The translations under genes were made by a program, and so were the position numbers. The notes beneath the pieces were generated by a model. The model made no database searches and had not been told where the DNA came from. It was given only the letters and a program-made list of their open reading frames with translations. Positions 17,844 through 43,077 of a stretch of 64,000 bases of DNA are shown piece after piece (the stretch's first letter is position 1; every line of letters starts with the position of its first letter). Source of the stretch: Sediminibacterium sp. (GTDB taxonomy: Bacteria; Bacteroidota; Bacteroidia; Chitinophagales; Chitinophagaceae); assembly GCA_017537025.1 (NCBI GenBank), contig JAFWCB010000005.1, forward strand, positions 434,001-498,000, written 5' to 3'.

Positions 17844-19019
17844 CTAGTATTTATATAAACAACTACTGATAGTTTCTAAATCGGTTTCCGTAAGCTCGGG
17901 GTAGTTACCACAATAAAAGCTATTCGTATGCAAAAAATTTGTATTAGGCAAATCAAAAAGCTGTTTGACATATTTTTTATAAAAAGGCTGTAATTGGATG
18001 TTACCTGCTATCATAGGTCTTATTTCTATACCGGCACCTGCAAAGCGAGACAGGTAGTGTTCACGCAATGCTGGCGTTTTGCAAACAACTGGAAAGGCAA
18101 AGGTTGATAAACACGTAATATGACTATGTTTTAAAATTACCAGATCTTCGTTTTGTTGCATTATTTTTTCTAAACGTAAATAGTTTTGCTCTCTACATCG
18201 AATATTACTCTCTAAATACTGCATCTGAAACTGCCCTAAAAATCCGGTAATCTCTGTTGGTCTGAGGTTATAACCTAAATCGTAAAAGGTATATTTCGCT
18301 TCAAACTCTGATTGTATATTATATTTTTTTCGCCATTTCACTTGTTGTTTTGCGGTAAGGTTTCTATCCCACCCGTTTGCTCTTACAATCCGAAGCATTT
18401 CAGCAAAATCTTCATCGTCTGTACAAACCATTCCTCCCTCGATAGTACTCATATGATGTGCAACAAAAAAGGAAAAGCTTGCGGCTAATCCATAATTACC
18501 TGCTTTACCAGTTCTCAATTCTGTTCCTAGGGATTCACAGTTATCCTCAATCAGTAGAACACCTTTTTCTTCACAAATAGATCTAATCTTATCAAGATCT
18601 CCAGTAAAACCAAGTACATTAGTTAAAAATAAAGCCCTTAAATCTACCTCGGCCAAGGTTTTTTCCAGATTAGCAGACATTACATTTAAAACACTGTAAT
18701 CACAATCGATAGCTACTGGCACTAAACCCATTTGTATAATAGGCATTGTATTGGTACTCCAAGTTAATGCCGAGAAACCTATCCTATCTCCTTCTTTAAG
18801 CTTACCTAAATTTTTCAAAGCTTGCAACATAGCAAGATTCGCACTACCACCGCTATTAAACAGTATAGCTTCCTTACGGCCTTGATATAAAGAAAATTTC
18901 TTTTCGAACAAAGCACACTCCTTATCCATGCTAAGCCTATTAGCTTTTAATATAAATTCAGCTAAAGCTTTTTTTGTTTCATGCTCATGCAAAAAAGCAT
19001 TTTTCATCAATGGAATCAT
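17844..19019 (-). CDS. ColD-like PLP enzyme: GDP-4-keto-6-deoxymannose 3-dehydratase
   Basis: 391-residue DegT/DnrJ/EryC1/StrS-fold protein, but probably a dehydratase rather than an aminotransferase. The position that holds the PLP-binding Lys in aminotransferases is His188 (SFFVAHHMSTIEGG, 183-196), which matches ColD His188. Other recalled ColD-like segments are IEDNCESLG (157-165), RANGWDRNL, YNLRPTE and GIEIRPMIAGN. ColD removes O3 of GDP-4-keto-6-deoxy-D-mannose using PLP and glutamate. The gene overlaps the fcl-like gene by 4 bp and precedes GT11 by 2 bp. RfbH-type CDP-sugar enzymes also have His, but no Fe-S cysteine pattern is seen here. The start could be ATG at residue 1 or 5. Confidence 0.7.
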   Translation of the reverse strand: MIPLMKNAFLHEHETKKALAEFILKANRLSMDKECALFEKKFSLYQGRKEAILFNSGGSANLAMLQALKNLGKLKEGDRIGFSALTWSTNTMPIIQMGLVPVAIDCDYSVLNVMSANLEKTLAEVDLRALFLTNVLGFTGDLDKIRSICEEKGVLLIEDNCESLGTELRTGKAGNYGLAASFSFFVAHHMSTIEGGMVCTDDEDFAEMLRIVRANGWDRNLTAKQQVKWRKKYNIQSEFEAKYTFYDLGYNLRPTEITGFLGQFQMQYLESNIRCREQNYLRLEKIMQQNEDLVILKHSHITCLSTFAFPVVCKTPALREHYLSRFAGAGIEIRPMIAGNIQLQPFYKKYVKQLFDLPNTNFLHTNSFYCGNYPELTETDLETISSCLYKY

Positions 19020-39088: not shown

Positions 39089-40156
39089 TTAAAATAATCT
39101 TCCCTGCTCTCCTGGTCGTTTAAAGCCTGAGCTATCAAGCTCCCATCGTTCTGCATTTAGTCCATATATTTTATTGTATTTAATAAATTGTTGTCTTACT
39201 AAATCACTGATCGGCCCCTCCCCCCTCATGCGTACTCCCCATCGGCTATCGTTTACTTTACCACCATGTCCGTTCTCAATTAAATGCCAAACCTTATCTG
39301 CCCTATCCGGAAAATTTTTATACAACCAATCATGAAAAATTAATTTGATTGCTCCATTCAACCGAATAAAAGTATAGGCGCTAAATACAGCCCCGTTGTT
39401 ACTTGCTGCCTCCATGATGCGTTGCATCTCATGTTCATTCAGTCCGGGAATCATTGGACCCAACATAACTCCCATTCTTACACCAACATCACTTAATTCT
39501 TTGATAACCCGTAATCGCTGTTTGGCTGTTGTTGTTCGAGGTTCCATAGTTCTACGTAAATCTTCATTAAAGGAAGTAATACTTACCAATACACTTACTA
39601 ATTTTTTCTTAGCCATTTCTTGTAATAAATTTTTGTCGCGTAGTATTCCTGCATTTTTTGTGATCATACCTACGGGCTGATTAAATTCATTACACACTTC
39701 TAATAACTGTTTTGTTAACTGATATTTTTTTTCAGCGGGCTGATAACAATCCGTATTGCCACTCAAACTAATCGGTACGGGTTCCCAGTTTTTATGCATT
39801 AGAAATTTACGCAATAGTTCTGGTGCGTTTTTCTTTACAATAATTTTTCGCTCAAAATCGAGCCCTGCACTGTATCCCCAATACTCATGCACATTACGCG
39901 CATAACAATAAATACAGCCATGCTCACAACCTTGGTAGGGATTCATACTATACATCATTCCTACATCCGGACTCTCTACTTTATTCACAATAGATTTTGC
40001 ATGATCTTCCAAATACACGGTAGCTTCATTGGGTTCCGTCCAATCATCAATAGCTTCTATATGCTCACGCACACGTTGATTCTTTAAAAATCTATTCTTA
40101 GGATTGAATTGGGCTCCTCTGCCTTTGAGATATATTTCTTCTTCTTCATTTGTCAT
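39089..40156 (-). CDS. PA0069-family radical SAM protein
   Basis: 355-residue radical SAM enzyme with the cluster motif C77-x3-C81-x2-C84 (NPYQGCEHGCIYCYARNVHEYW) and the following GLDFERKIIVK typical of the PA0069/Rv2578c family, which is related to spore photoproduct lyase. The reaction is not known. Similarity to photoproduct lyase and placement in a divergon with umuDC suggest nucleic-acid repair or modification, as inference. It overlaps the end of the 2H-like gene upstream by 4 bp (ATGA type), so it is in that operon. Start ATG. Confidence 0.87.
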   Translation of the reverse strand: MTNEEEEIYLKGRGAQFNPKNRFLKNQRVREHIEAIDDWTEPNEATVYLEDHAKSIVNKVESPDVGMMYSMNPYQGCEHGCIYCYARNVHEYWGYSAGLDFERKIIVKKNAPELLRKFLMHKNWEPVPISLSGNTDCYQPAEKKYQLTKQLLEVCNEFNQPVGMITKNAGILRDKNLLQEMAKKKLVSVLVSITSFNEDLRRTMEPRTTTAKQRLRVIKELSDVGVRMGVMLGPMIPGLNEHEMQRIMEAASNNGAVFSAYTFIRLNGAIKLIFHDWLYKNFPDRADKVWHLIENGHGGKVNDSRWGVRMRGEGPISDLVRQQFIKYNKIYGLNAERWELDSSGFKRPGEQGRLF

Positions 40157-40743
40157 ATAAATAAATGGCCTTGAATAGCAGGCGCAACTTTTTGATGTAA
40201 GAATGAGATTTTTTTAACTAATCGGTACTGATGTTCAGATACTCGCTTACGTAATAATTTTATTTCTGTTGCCACAAAGCGGCCACTAAATGGCGTATTA
40301 CTCATCTCCAGCCAACCTTTTTCAAATTGCCAAGGAAGCAACTTATTAGCTAATACAATATAAGGGTCAGTAATAAAATGCGGTTTATGATCCTTATTGG
40401 GTGTTAGCAAGCCGCGAATAGTAGCAATAGCTTTCACTATTAGGATCAATTCGTTTTTAGTGGCGATATTAAAAAAGATAGTATGGGTTGGAAAAGAGCC
40501 AAAGCCATTTATATCAATAGTGATATGATTGAACGATTGAATAATTCTAATTAGTGGCGCCATCATTCTTGTCTCCATCATTTCATATTGTTGAAATTGC
40601 ACTAAACTAATATTCGCATATGGCTTTACATGTGCCGCTGCTTCATAGTTTTCAGCGAATTGAGTATAGTGCACTAACATTTTTTCTTTCAGCGCTGCCG
40701 AAAGCTCTATCACCAGCAAGTATTGATTCAATGAATATTCCAT
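40153..40743 (-). CDS. degenerate 2H-phosphoesterase-like protein B
   Basis: 196-residue protein with the layout of the 2'-5' RNA ligase/2H fold: YLLVIELSAALKEKM at the start, KPYANISLVQF (about 40-50) where PHISLVQF is expected, and TDPYIVLANKL (near 134-144) where D-PHITLA-KL is expected. Both catalytic histidines of the paired HxT motifs are thus replaced (Asn, Tyr), so it is probably a non-catalytic binder of nucleic acid or nucleotides. It is a paralogue of the gene 2 bp upstream. The gene order within the divergon implies a shared role. Start ATG. Confidence 0.6.
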   Translation of the reverse strand: MEYSLNQYLLVIELSAALKEKMLVHYTQFAENYEAAAHVKPYANISLVQFQQYEMMETRMMAPLIRIIQSFNHITIDINGFGSFPTHTIFFNIATKNELILIVKAIATIRGLLTPNKDHKPHFITDPYIVLANKLLPWQFEKGWLEMSNTPFSGRFVATEIKLLRKRVSEHQYRLVKKISFLHQKVAPAIQGHLFI

Positions 40744-40745
40744 AA

Positions 40746-41282
40746 TCAGGGATATAATGCAAATACATTTACTTGTTTATAAGCATCTCTTGCATGCTGG
40801 CGCTTCATTAATACGATTGATTGTACTTGGTATTGCCCTTCATAATTGATGGCTGCACCGGCCAATTGCAAATGATAAGCAGGATCGGCAACGGCACTCA
40901 GCACAGCAGTATGCAGCTTTAATTGAAATTGCATTTCGCCACAACCATAGCTGCTGAGATACTGACTAATCACGCGCATATTATTAGCCATACGCTGGAA
41001 AACAGATCGGTCGGCAATACGCAGGTATAAACCCTGTTCATTCCGTTGCTGCGCTATCTGCATCGTAAACTGAGGCTGTGTGCTCAATATCCGATGCATC
41101 CATCGAATAATCGTGGCTTCCATAGCCTCTTTTGCTTCGAAAGAAGCCAGTTCAATAGGCCCCGGCCGTGGGCGTGTAATAGTGTTTTTACCCAATTGAG
41201 GGTAAATCAATAATAGATACTCACTGCAATTAGCCGTTTGCTTTGTTGATTGATGTTGGGTTGTTAAAGATCCTGCCTGCAT
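40746..41282 (-). CDS. degenerate 2H-phosphoesterase-like protein A
   Basis: About 178 residues. It aligns along its length with the next gene: EYLLLIYPQL with QYLLVIELSA, GPIELASFEAKEAMEATIIRW with ANISLVQFQQYEMMETRMM, LHTAVLSA with PYIVLANK, and the C-terminal LMKRQHARDAYKQV with LLRKRVSEHQYRLV. The first HxT motif is lost and the second keeps His but not Thr. No other domain is recognised. I use the ATG at 41282; a TTG two codons earlier is also open. It is divergent from umuD across 72 bp. Confidence 0.55.
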   Translation of the reverse strand: MQAGSLTTQHQSTKQTANCSEYLLLIYPQLGKNTITRPRPGPIELASFEAKEAMEATIIRWMHRILSTQPQFTMQIAQQRNEQGLYLRIADRSVFQRMANNMRVISQYLSSYGCGEMQFQLKLHTAVLSAVADPAYHLQLAGAAINYEGQYQVQSIVLMKRQHARDAYKQVNVFALYP

Positions 41283-41320
41283 AAACAAAATTATTATTTG
41301 TGAAATAATTTAGCATAAAT

Positions 41321-41339
41321 TTACTAAATATTTTAGTAA
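41321..41339. promoter_or_regulatory. perfect palindrome, candidate operator of umuDC divergon
   Basis: TTACTAAA-TAT-TTTAGTAA: 8-bp perfect arms with a 3-bp centre, 15 bp before the umuD ATG and 38 bp before the start of the divergent operon. A plus-strand promoter-like pair (TTTG 41297-41300, TAAATTTA 41316-41323) overlaps its left arm, so a bound repressor would block umuDC and could also affect the other operon. The candidate regulator is a LexA-like or HTH protein elsewhere in the genome; none is encoded here. Confidence 0.5.
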
Positions 41340-41354
41340 GTAAAAATTATTTTT

Positions 41355-41795
41355 ATGGAAGGGGAAATCAGACATGGAGCTGCCTATAAGGGCTCTAAAC
41401 AGTACTCGCAATGGGAGGTACCCACCGCCAATGCCACCGGTTTTGGAGCCGCGGCCGATGATTATATGGAACGCGGTATCGATCTTAACGAGCAATTAAT
41501 CTACAACAAACCCGCTACTTTCTTTTTTAGAATGAATAGCGATGCCATGCAAGGCGCCGGTATCTTTAGCGGTGATATACTCATTGTAGATCGTAGTATA
41601 AAGCCGGTAAGCGGGAAAATTATCATTGCCATACTGGATGGTGAACTACTGGTTCGGCGGCTACAGAAGAATATTAATTCAGCAGTACTCATGGCCGAAA
41701 ATAAAAAGTTTGCAGATATCCCTTTATCTGCCTTTGATGATCGCGCCAATGTATGGGGTGTGGTTACTTATGCTATTCACTCACTATCTTCTTAA
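41355..41795 (+). CDS. umuD: UmuD homologue lacking the Ser/Lys dyad
   Basis: 146-residue S24-fold protein aligning without gaps to E. coli UmuD over about 75 residues: GFGAAADDYMERGIDLNEQLI, NSDAMQGAGIFSGDILIVDRS and DGELLVRRLQ. The nucleophile Ser60 (D-S-M) is Ala64 (D-A-M) and the general base Lys97 (V-K-K-L) is Arg101 (V-R-R-L). The scissile Cys-Gly is Thr28-Gly29. Self-cleavage by the known mechanism should be impossible. It lacks a DNA-binding domain. umuC starts one base after its stop, so the two proteins are made together. Start ATG, 15 bp after a palindrome. Confidence 0.9.
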   Translation: MEGEIRHGAAYKGSKQYSQWEVPTANATGFGAAADDYMERGIDLNEQLIYNKPATFFFRMNSDAMQGAGIFSGDILIVDRSIKPVSGKIIIAILDGELLVRRLQKNINSAVLMAENKKFADIPLSAFDDRANVWGVVTYAIHSLSS

Positions 41796-41796
41796 T

Positions 41797-43077
41797 ATGC
41801 GTGCTATTGTAGATTGTAATAGTTTCTATTGCTCCTGCGAGCGTTTATTCCAACCTGCATTGGCTAATAAACCAGTAGTAGTATTGAGTAATAACGATGG
41901 CTGTATCATATCGCGAAGCGATGAAGCAAAAGCATTGGGAGTTGAAATGGCAGGCCCTTATTTTAAAGCAAAACCATTGATCGAAAAATATGGGGTAACT
42001 ACTTTTTCTTCTAATTATAATCTCTATGGCGATTTAAGTTGGCGCGTAATGGAAAGCTTACGTATGGTATTACCACCGGGTGCGGTAGAAGTATATTCTG
42101 TAGATGAATGTTTTTTAGATCTCAAACATGTACCTGTTGCCGAACTACAATCCTTTACTTTATATCTCAAAGAAATTGTAGAACAATGGACGGGTATAAA
42201 GGTATCAATAGGTGTAGCACCCACCAAAGTGCTTTCGAAAGTAGCCAACCGATTAGCTAAAAAACATAAACAACTTACTAACTGTATACTTGTACTCGAT
42301 ACTCCACGTAAAATAGAACAGGCTTTACAGAAAACACCTATTGAAGATATATGGGGAGTGGGCTATCAATACGCCACTAAACTACGTAGGCTGGAAATTA
42401 ATACGGCTTTTGATTTGAGTAAGAAAACAATTGAATGGGCGCACCGAAATCTGGGGGGCGTAGTGGGTATACGATTAATTCGTGAATTATGTGGGGAAGA
42501 AAGTATGGTTATGAATGAAGAAAGAATACAAAAAAAAATGATCGCTACCACCCGTATGTTCGGCTCCCCCGTAACAGATATTAAAGCCATTAAAGAGGCG
42601 GTAGCTACCTATACAGCAAGGGCTGCAGAGAAATTGCGGCGCCAGCATGGCGCCGCAACAATGATCAGCGTTTTTGTAGTTCCAAAAGAACAATCACATA
42701 ATACTCATTTTAAACATGGTCCCACTATCAGCGATCAATTATTACTACCCGTTGCCACTTCCATAACCAATGAACTTATTAAACCTGCTATGCAGTTAGT
42801 AGACAAATTATTTGAACCAGGGCGTATCTATAAAAAAGCAGGTGTTATGCTTAGCCATATCGTACCGGATAATGCTATCCAAAGCACATTATTCGATCCA
42901 CCGGCTACAGCCAAAAATCGAATGCTTATGAGCACTATCGATAATGTAAATTTTGCTATGCGTGATGATATGCTAAAATTCGCCTCCTCCGGAACTACGC
43001 GTAACTGGAAAATGCGTCAGGAGCTGCGCAGCCCCCGTTACACTTCTCGCTGGGAGGAAATATGTACTGTGAAATAA
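41797..43077 (+). CDS. umuC: UmuC-type Y-family DNA polymerase
   Basis: 426-residue translesion polymerase. Metal-binding residues are intact: Asp6 (VDCNSFYCSCE) and Asp103/Glu104 (YSVDECFLDL). GVAPTKVLSKVANRLAKK marks the palm, and the little-finger region and C-terminal DUF4113-like part end near 426. The open frame extends 57 codons further upstream, inside umuD, but ATG-Arg-Ala-Ile at 41797 matches the family start. Together with UmuD' it would form Pol V; here its partner seems unable to be processed. It ends one base before the stop of the convergent DUF72 gene. Confidence 0.93.
   Translation: MRAIVDCNSFYCSCERLFQPALANKPVVVLSNNDGCIISRSDEAKALGVEMAGPYFKAKPLIEKYGVTTFSSNYNLYGDLSWRVMESLRMVLPPGAVEVYSVDECFLDLKHVPVAELQSFTLYLKEIVEQWTGIKVSIGVAPTKVLSKVANRLAKKHKQLTNCILVLDTPRKIEQALQKTPIEDIWGVGYQYATKLRRLEINTAFDLSKKTIEWAHRNLGGVVGIRLIRELCGEESMVMNEERIQKKMIATTRMFGSPVTDIKAIKEAVATYTARAAEKLRRQHGAATMISVFVVPKEQSHNTHFKHGPTISDQLLLPVATSITNELIKPAMQLVDKLFEPGRIYKKAGVMLSHIVPDNAIQSTLFDPPATAKNRMLMSTIDNVNFAMRDDMLKFASSGTTRNWKMRQELRSPRYTSRWEEICTVK

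Follow-up and report, generated by a model that had tools for sequence, protein, structure and literature searches.

In E. coli, the N-terminal arm of UmuD is removed by self-cleavage to switch on error-prone Pol V, and this cleavage is regarded as a late-acting switch for mutagenesis by Pol V. How, then, would a UmuD work in which both catalytic residues have been replaced? The question is raised by a umuD-like gene of Sediminibacterium sp. (Chitinophagaceae), found in a 64,000-nucleotide stretch of DNA (contig JAFWCB010000005.1, positions 434,001 to 498,000), referred to here as the window. The features of the locus, in window coordinates, are as follows:

39089..40156, minus strand, gene of a PA0069-family radical SAM protein (NF033668, 475.5 bits, cut-off 360)
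40153..40743, minus strand, second divergent gene, whose product resembles the 2'-5' RNA ligase superfamily (PF13563 at 24.8 bits, short of the cut-off of 27)
40746..41288, minus strand, first divergent gene, 180 amino acids from TTG as listed, with an ATG two codons further on (no Pfam or NCBIfam match)
41324..41336, plus strand, CTAAATATTTTAG, matching the CTAA-N5-TTAG SOS motif, between umuD and the divergent gene
41355..41795, plus strand, umuD-like gene, 146 amino acids, lacking the catalytic dyad (A64, R101) and carrying T28-G29-F-G-A-A at the old cut site
41355..41438, plus strand, N-terminal arm, codons 1-28, kept and conserved in the dyad-less clade
41544..41546, plus strand, GCC, encoding Ala64 in place of catalytic Ser60
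41655..41657, plus strand, CGG, encoding Arg101 in place of catalytic Lys97
41797..43077, plus strand, umuC, 426 amino acids, with D6, D103 and E104 present and DUF4113 at residues 377-425

A UmuD without the Ser-Lys dyad

The 146-residue product of reading frame 41355-41795 (+) passes the cut-offs of NCBIfam NF007621 (translesion error-prone DNA polymerase V autoproteolytic subunit; 129.1 bits, cut-off 110) and of Pfam Peptidase_S24 (77.3 bits, cut-off 23.3). It remains under those of TIGR00498 (54.4 bits, cut-off 110.95) and of the HumD model NF051876 (76.7 bits, cut-off 120). A LexA-type N-terminal DNA-binding domain was not found in it, Pfam giving S24 alone. Its phmmer alignment with the E. 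coli UmuD and UmuD' chains is gap-free between the cleavage region and a point past Lys97, as the preliminary description of this locus had reported, with GDSM of E. coli changed to SDAM and TVKKLQ to LVRRLQ. The central claim of that description, replacement of Ser60 by Ala64 (gcc) and of Lys97 by Arg101 (cgg), is confirmed by the codons and the alignment. The Ser-Lys dyad of an active S24 peptidase is absent, and by the S24 mechanism self-processing to UmuD' would not be expected, in agreement with the earlier proposal. The cleavage point had previously been placed at Thr28-Gly29; what had gone unnoticed is that the cut site itself has changed. All three requirements of RecA-stimulated self-cleavage (the serine, the lysine and the Ala/Cys-Gly bond) are replaced.

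A sequencing error or a strain oddity was considered and rejected. A 98-99% identical protein with the same Ala/Arg pair is present in two other assemblies (L034, L035), and across 94 distinct proteins every one of the four Ala and six Arg codons is used for the two residues. Since relatives carry the same pair, encoded by varied codons, an error is excluded in practice.

The window protein thus resembles E. coli UmuD in its NF007621 family, gap-free alignment, adjacent umuC and SOS-type operator, and differs from it in lacking the Ser/Lys dyad and the Ala/Cys-Gly-Phe-Pro-Ser-Pro cut site and in having a conserved arm. The same two positions are non-catalytic in the E. coli laboratory mutants S60A and K97A. 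However, these mutations impair Pol V function, whereas in the window protein the replacement is the natural state and the cut site and arm are altered as well. The S24 domain and the operator are also shared with the Bacteroidetes S24-family SOS regulators, which differ from the window protein in having a DNA-binding domain and in retaining both Ala-Gly and Ser-Lys (parts covered of PMC8565304). The name "autoproteolytic subunit", which the window protein earns through NF007621, would be misleading for the dyad-less clade.

Distribution and history of the loss

The group of the window protein was defined by more than 50% core identity to it and comprised 128 loci, three of which (L001, L004, L214) are the window itself and some of which may repeat one species from two collections. 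The dyad was absent from 128/128, position 97 being Arg in all and position 60 being Ala in 122 and Ser in 6. An earlier alignment of 111 rows (L001 and L004 being the window) contained 107 Ala/Arg and 4 Ser/Arg proteins, with Lys in none. Two culturable environmental species, Sediminibacterium salmoneum (L039) and Foetidibacter luteolus (L053), are Ala/Arg in this alignment. The D103 and E104 carboxylates of UmuC were present in 27/27 partners, and the clade-wide loss linked to an intact UmuC that the preliminary description had envisaged was found. The loss of the dyad is not a local mutation of the window gene.

The wider survey included a scan of named genomes, which gave 206 relatives, many of them Sediminibacterium and other Chitinophagaceae (the best 80 of the 206 were used), and a homologue search of 394 genomes of the family, which gave a match in 239. 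Of these matches, 196 were strong (E of 1e-39 or better) and 43 weak; positions 60 and 97 were read in genomes with a fetched locus, and the state of most of the 196 strong-match genomes is inferred. The 43 weak-match genomes yielded 28 loci (L115-L142), with 19 Ser/Lys, 5 Ala/Arg, 2 Cys/Arg, 1 Ser/Arg and 1 unreadable protein, L140 being read as Cys/Arg in one alignment and unaligned in another. Canonical Ser/Lys UmuD thus also occurs within Chitinophagaceae, and genome G087, of the genus of the window, has both an Ala/Arg and a Ser/Lys UmuD (L114, L173). A phylum sample of 281 rows (280 reading frames, LexA-like proteins included, and E. coli) contained 132 Ala/Arg, 124 Ser/Lys and 8 Ser/Arg rows, the remainder being other or unreadable; the phylum samples were chosen to contain both forms, and these counts are not frequencies. 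A mobile origin was rejected, all plasmid and phage matches among those listed (at least 5000 records in one search and 69 in another) being less than 60% identical.

The cut site has changed as well as the dyad. Ala-Gly-Phe-Pro-Ser-Pro has become mostly Thr-Gly-Phe-Gly-Ala-Ala in the group of the window, the residue before Gly in 94 distinct proteins being Thr in 83, Asn in 7 and Ser in 4. In the Chitinophagaceae group Phe-Pro-Ser-Pro is replaced by Phe-Gly-Ala-Ala (Gly in 87/92, both Ala in 92/92). Among 138 representatives, a set without E. coli and with five LexA-like proteins, Ala precedes Gly in 77/81 Ser/Lys proteins versus 1/57 others, the other 56 having Thr (43), another residue (9) or an unreadable position (4). 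The counts 77/81 and 1/57 are not phylogenetically independent, and the starred branches gave 4 independent pairs, too few for a test, with 3 in the same direction and 1 without difference (p 0.25).

In a UmuD tree of 139 representatives and 113 columns, the dyad-less Chitinophagaceae proteins formed one group of 38 (SH-aLRT 100), and no Ser/Lys row fell inside it. This tree omits unreadable rows (L117, L140, L154, L201, L247), those in which the core had under 85 residues, LexA-like rows except five, and any row that exceeded 82% identity to a retained one sharing its dyad state. The Ser/Arg rows present in the trees fell within the dyad-less clade. In a bootstrapped UmuC tree of 61 rows, the partners of the dyad-less Chitinophagaceae UmuDs were one clade (99/94), which L222 and L219, dyad-less rows belonging to other families of the order, join (100/92 and 96/86); the partners of dyad-less UmuDs from a further family of Bacteroidota, coded f23, were another (100/99). 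The tree separates these two clades, with a backbone between them that is not starred. A test on a quick tree did not reject Chitinophagaceae and f23 as one clade, the joint tree being 19.3 log units better (p 0.72). Isolated dyad-less rows such as L133 and L184 sit within starred Ser/Lys groups, which argues for more than one loss, and the starred branches of the bootstrapped UmuC tree require no fewer than 3 changes between Ser/Lys and other states.

The f23 group (L174-L178, L191, L223, L224, L232) has mostly Glu-Thr-Gly at the cut site and carries no CTAA-N5-TTAG box upstream. L178, its sole protein read through the cut region, keeps Pro-Ser-Pro, unlike the Chitinophagaceae group.

The conserved N-terminal arm and the processing of UmuD

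The arm was compared as the 27 residues preceding the cut-site Gly. Five of its positions (Y-18, G-16, K-14, Q-10 and A-2) were invariant in 94/94 distinct proteins of the dyad-less group. Arm identity in this group was 0.57, 0.59 and 0.64 where core identity was about 0.60, 0.65 and 0.70, versus 0.31, 0.35 and 0.41 in Ser/Lys proteins, with 0.19 for shuffled arms. The pN/pS ratios of the arm in two identity bands were 0.25 and 0.08 in the dyad-less group versus 0.39 and 0.25 in Ser/Lys proteins, while those of the core were similar in the two classes (0.05-0.13); these ratios are rough, synonymous differences being near saturation. It is mainly because the arm, removed in E. coli, has become a conserved element that full-length UmuD is taken here as the working form. 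The conservation could instead reflect a degron or another partner.

The preliminary description had offered three alternatives: use of full-length UmuD, a constitutively active start and cleavage in trans by another protease. The first fits best. A constitutively active start, giving a ready-made UmuD', fits badly, as the arm is encoded and conserved. In its specific form, translation from an internal codon such as Met38 would directly give a UmuD'-like protein. Met is found at this position in 81/92 distinct proteins of the dyad-less group, but it is lacking in the other 11 and occurs in 18/91 Ser/Lys proteins too. A start there would, moreover, cut off part of the arm of UmuD', and the upstream arm is under purifying selection. 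We regard an internal start as very improbable.

UmuD' would still arise if another S24 protein cleaved UmuD in trans or a housekeeping protease trimmed it. An active partner can cut E. coli UmuD S60A in trans (parts covered of PMC5342242), and the coexistence of Ala/Arg and Ser/Lys UmuDs in G087 also speaks for this route. In the genome of the window (94.7% complete), however, the window protein is the only UmuD among three S24 proteins, the other two having helix-turn-helix matches, one of them under Pfam cut-offs. The usual target, Ala/Cys-Gly-Phe-Pro-Ser-Pro, has been lost, and conservation of the arm is higher, not lower. Processing in trans is consequently disfavoured and seems improbable to us.

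Of the other S24 genes of this genome, a LexA-like one is flanked by a SAVED-domain gene on one side and a YhcG/DUF1016 nuclease gene on the other; this locus (L002:276-3357) looks like a defence-type one. L003 encodes a protein with HTH and S24 domains, has two CTAA-N5-TTAG boxes just upstream, and is a candidate SOS repressor of the genome.

The SOS operator, UmuC and the working form of UmuD

CTAA-N5-TTAG is the SOS motif published for this bacterial family (parts covered of PMC8565304). It was present upstream of 93/93 genes of the dyad-less group, compared with 12/90 Ser/Lys genes and 0/9 f23 genes; at 70 of the 93 its distance to the codon equivalent to the start of the window gene is 17-23 bases. 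Stretches taken at random from these loci contained it in 34/465 (dyad-less group, where some stretches include the SOS box itself), 5/450 (Ser/Lys) and 0/45 (f23) cases. From the operator sequence we infer that umuD of the dyad-less group is SOS-induced. The motif also occurs at window positions 18931 and 25429, inside long reading frames, probably by chance.

That UmuD is a decaying relic without function is suggested by the lost catalytic residues and by relatives with odd N-termini or beyond alignment (L116, L117, L118, L124, L136). Against this, the core is as constrained as in Ser/Lys proteins, and the SOS box and the umuC neighbourhood are retained. We give a relic hardly any credence.

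The box also lies next to the divergent genes, the first of which (40746..41288) we take, by eye, to be LigT-like. Among 61 dyad-less loci with 2.3 kb on both sides, at least one LigT-like gene was found at 60, a radical SAM gene at 40 and a DUF72 gene at 27; separate counts for the two LigT-like genes are rough, as each query may also hit the other gene. At 95 Ser/Lys loci no such neighbour except umuC was found, none of these loci spanning 2.3 kb on both sides, which makes the comparison of outer genes unfair. In much of the clade, then, the genes divergent from the dyad-less umuD are two LigT-like ones and a radical SAM one of the PA0069 family (39089-41288 in the window), and together with the SOS box they possibly form a damage-inducible module.

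The adjoining UmuC, called intact in the preliminary description, is so: it has IMS, IMS_C and DUF4113 domains and all three carboxylates, and its gene starts one base past the umuD stop codon. In the dyad-less clade D6 was also present in 26/27 proteins, the remaining row being cut short. We consider it probable that UmuD works at full length, as the subunit of a Pol V-type enzyme that is regulated through transcription and not through cleavage. According to this model, a UmuD subfamily has permanently given up self-processing. The umuD and umuC genes sit behind the SOS operator of the family and would be induced through it, and UmuD, judging by its residues, would remain full length. The 28-residue arm, no longer a removable cap, would have a permanent function in the mature protein; its conservation suggests that it most likely docks, be it to UmuC, to its own dimer or to a partner in the replisome. 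Pol V would then be gated by transcription, and presumably by RecA-ATP, and would be spared the delay that cleavage imposes in E. coli.

The E. coli mutants bear on this model. Non-cleavable S60A UmuD reduces Pol V mutagenesis (parts covered of PMC3901139), and with UmuD K97A, UmuC is kept at the membrane and mutagenesis by Pol V is inhibited (parts covered of PMC4552617). An active full-length complex would therefore need compensating changes; either the clade has altered the UmuC interface or it has exchanged mutagenesis for a checkpoint role. Twenty-one UmuC positions differ consistently from the partners of Ser/Lys proteins, 5 of them in DUF4113 versus about 2.4 expected by length, a weak indication of compensating changes; the sites in this domain are too few to build on.

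The checkpoint role has been considered in its own right. An uncleavable UmuD might keep UmuC permanently in a UmuD2C-like state that slows replication and prevents mutagenesis, without translesion synthesis. In E. coli this role is independent of the polymerase activity of UmuC. The conserved carboxylates of the clade, which may be constrained for another reason, suggest an active polymerase rather than a checkpoint complex alone. Full-length UmuD2C does act in checkpoint control in E. coli (parts covered of PMC4045847), and S60A lowers UV mutagenesis there, but S60A cells are also more UV-sensitive than the wild type (parts covered of PMC3901139). A permanent checkpoint complex is, in our view, unlikely.

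Function of a full-length, uncleaved UmuD would have partial parallels. HumD and other UmuD'-like phage proteins function without self-cleavage, as proposed here for the window UmuD; HumD is without the N-terminal arm, which the window protein keeps. The small subunit of Bacillus subtilis YqjX/YolD is not known to be cleaved either. Its N-terminal arm has been modelled inside the polymerase (parts covered of PMC12926913), and it could illustrate how a permanent UmuD arm works; the likeness is one of mode of working only, the protein family being different (parts covered of PMC6511836).

More tentatively, at slightly less than even odds, we propose a naturally cleavage-independent Pol V, in which the switch (dyad, cut site and Pro-Ser-Pro) was dismantled as a unit, the cap became a fixed, conserved element of the subunit, the damage-inducible neighbourhood is shared with LigT-like and PA0069-type radical SAM genes, and similar losses occurred more than once in Bacteroidota. 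No description of a UmuD naturally lacking the dyad was found among the titles and abstract beginnings listed from the open-access literature. The parts covered of PMC8565304 examine the dyad in regulators and contain nothing on that of UmuD, and those of PMC6511836 and PMC12926913 make no mention of a dyad-less UmuD. If the proposal is true, a large natural clade without self-cleavage would show that the Pol V switch is dispensable, and it would provide a ready-made non-cleavable Pol V for study and a direct test of the role of the N-terminal arm.

The arrangement of the two genes was examined at 130 Ala/Arg loci. The umuC gene lies downstream on the same strand at 108 and on the other strand at 6, and at 16 none was present within the stretch examined; the 22 loci without a same-strand downstream umuC count against full-length UmuD as a Pol V subunit. 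It was found at 111 of the 122 group loci counted (a count that omits the window entries L001, L004 and L214, L207 as a repeat of L016, and L205 and L206) and at all 61 relatives covered for 2.3 kb on each side. In 3 of these the arrangement is altered and umuC lies beyond the LigT-like genes. At L045, umuD and umuC are separated by about 450 bases including a small reading frame, whose product presumably resembles a DUF559-type nuclease.
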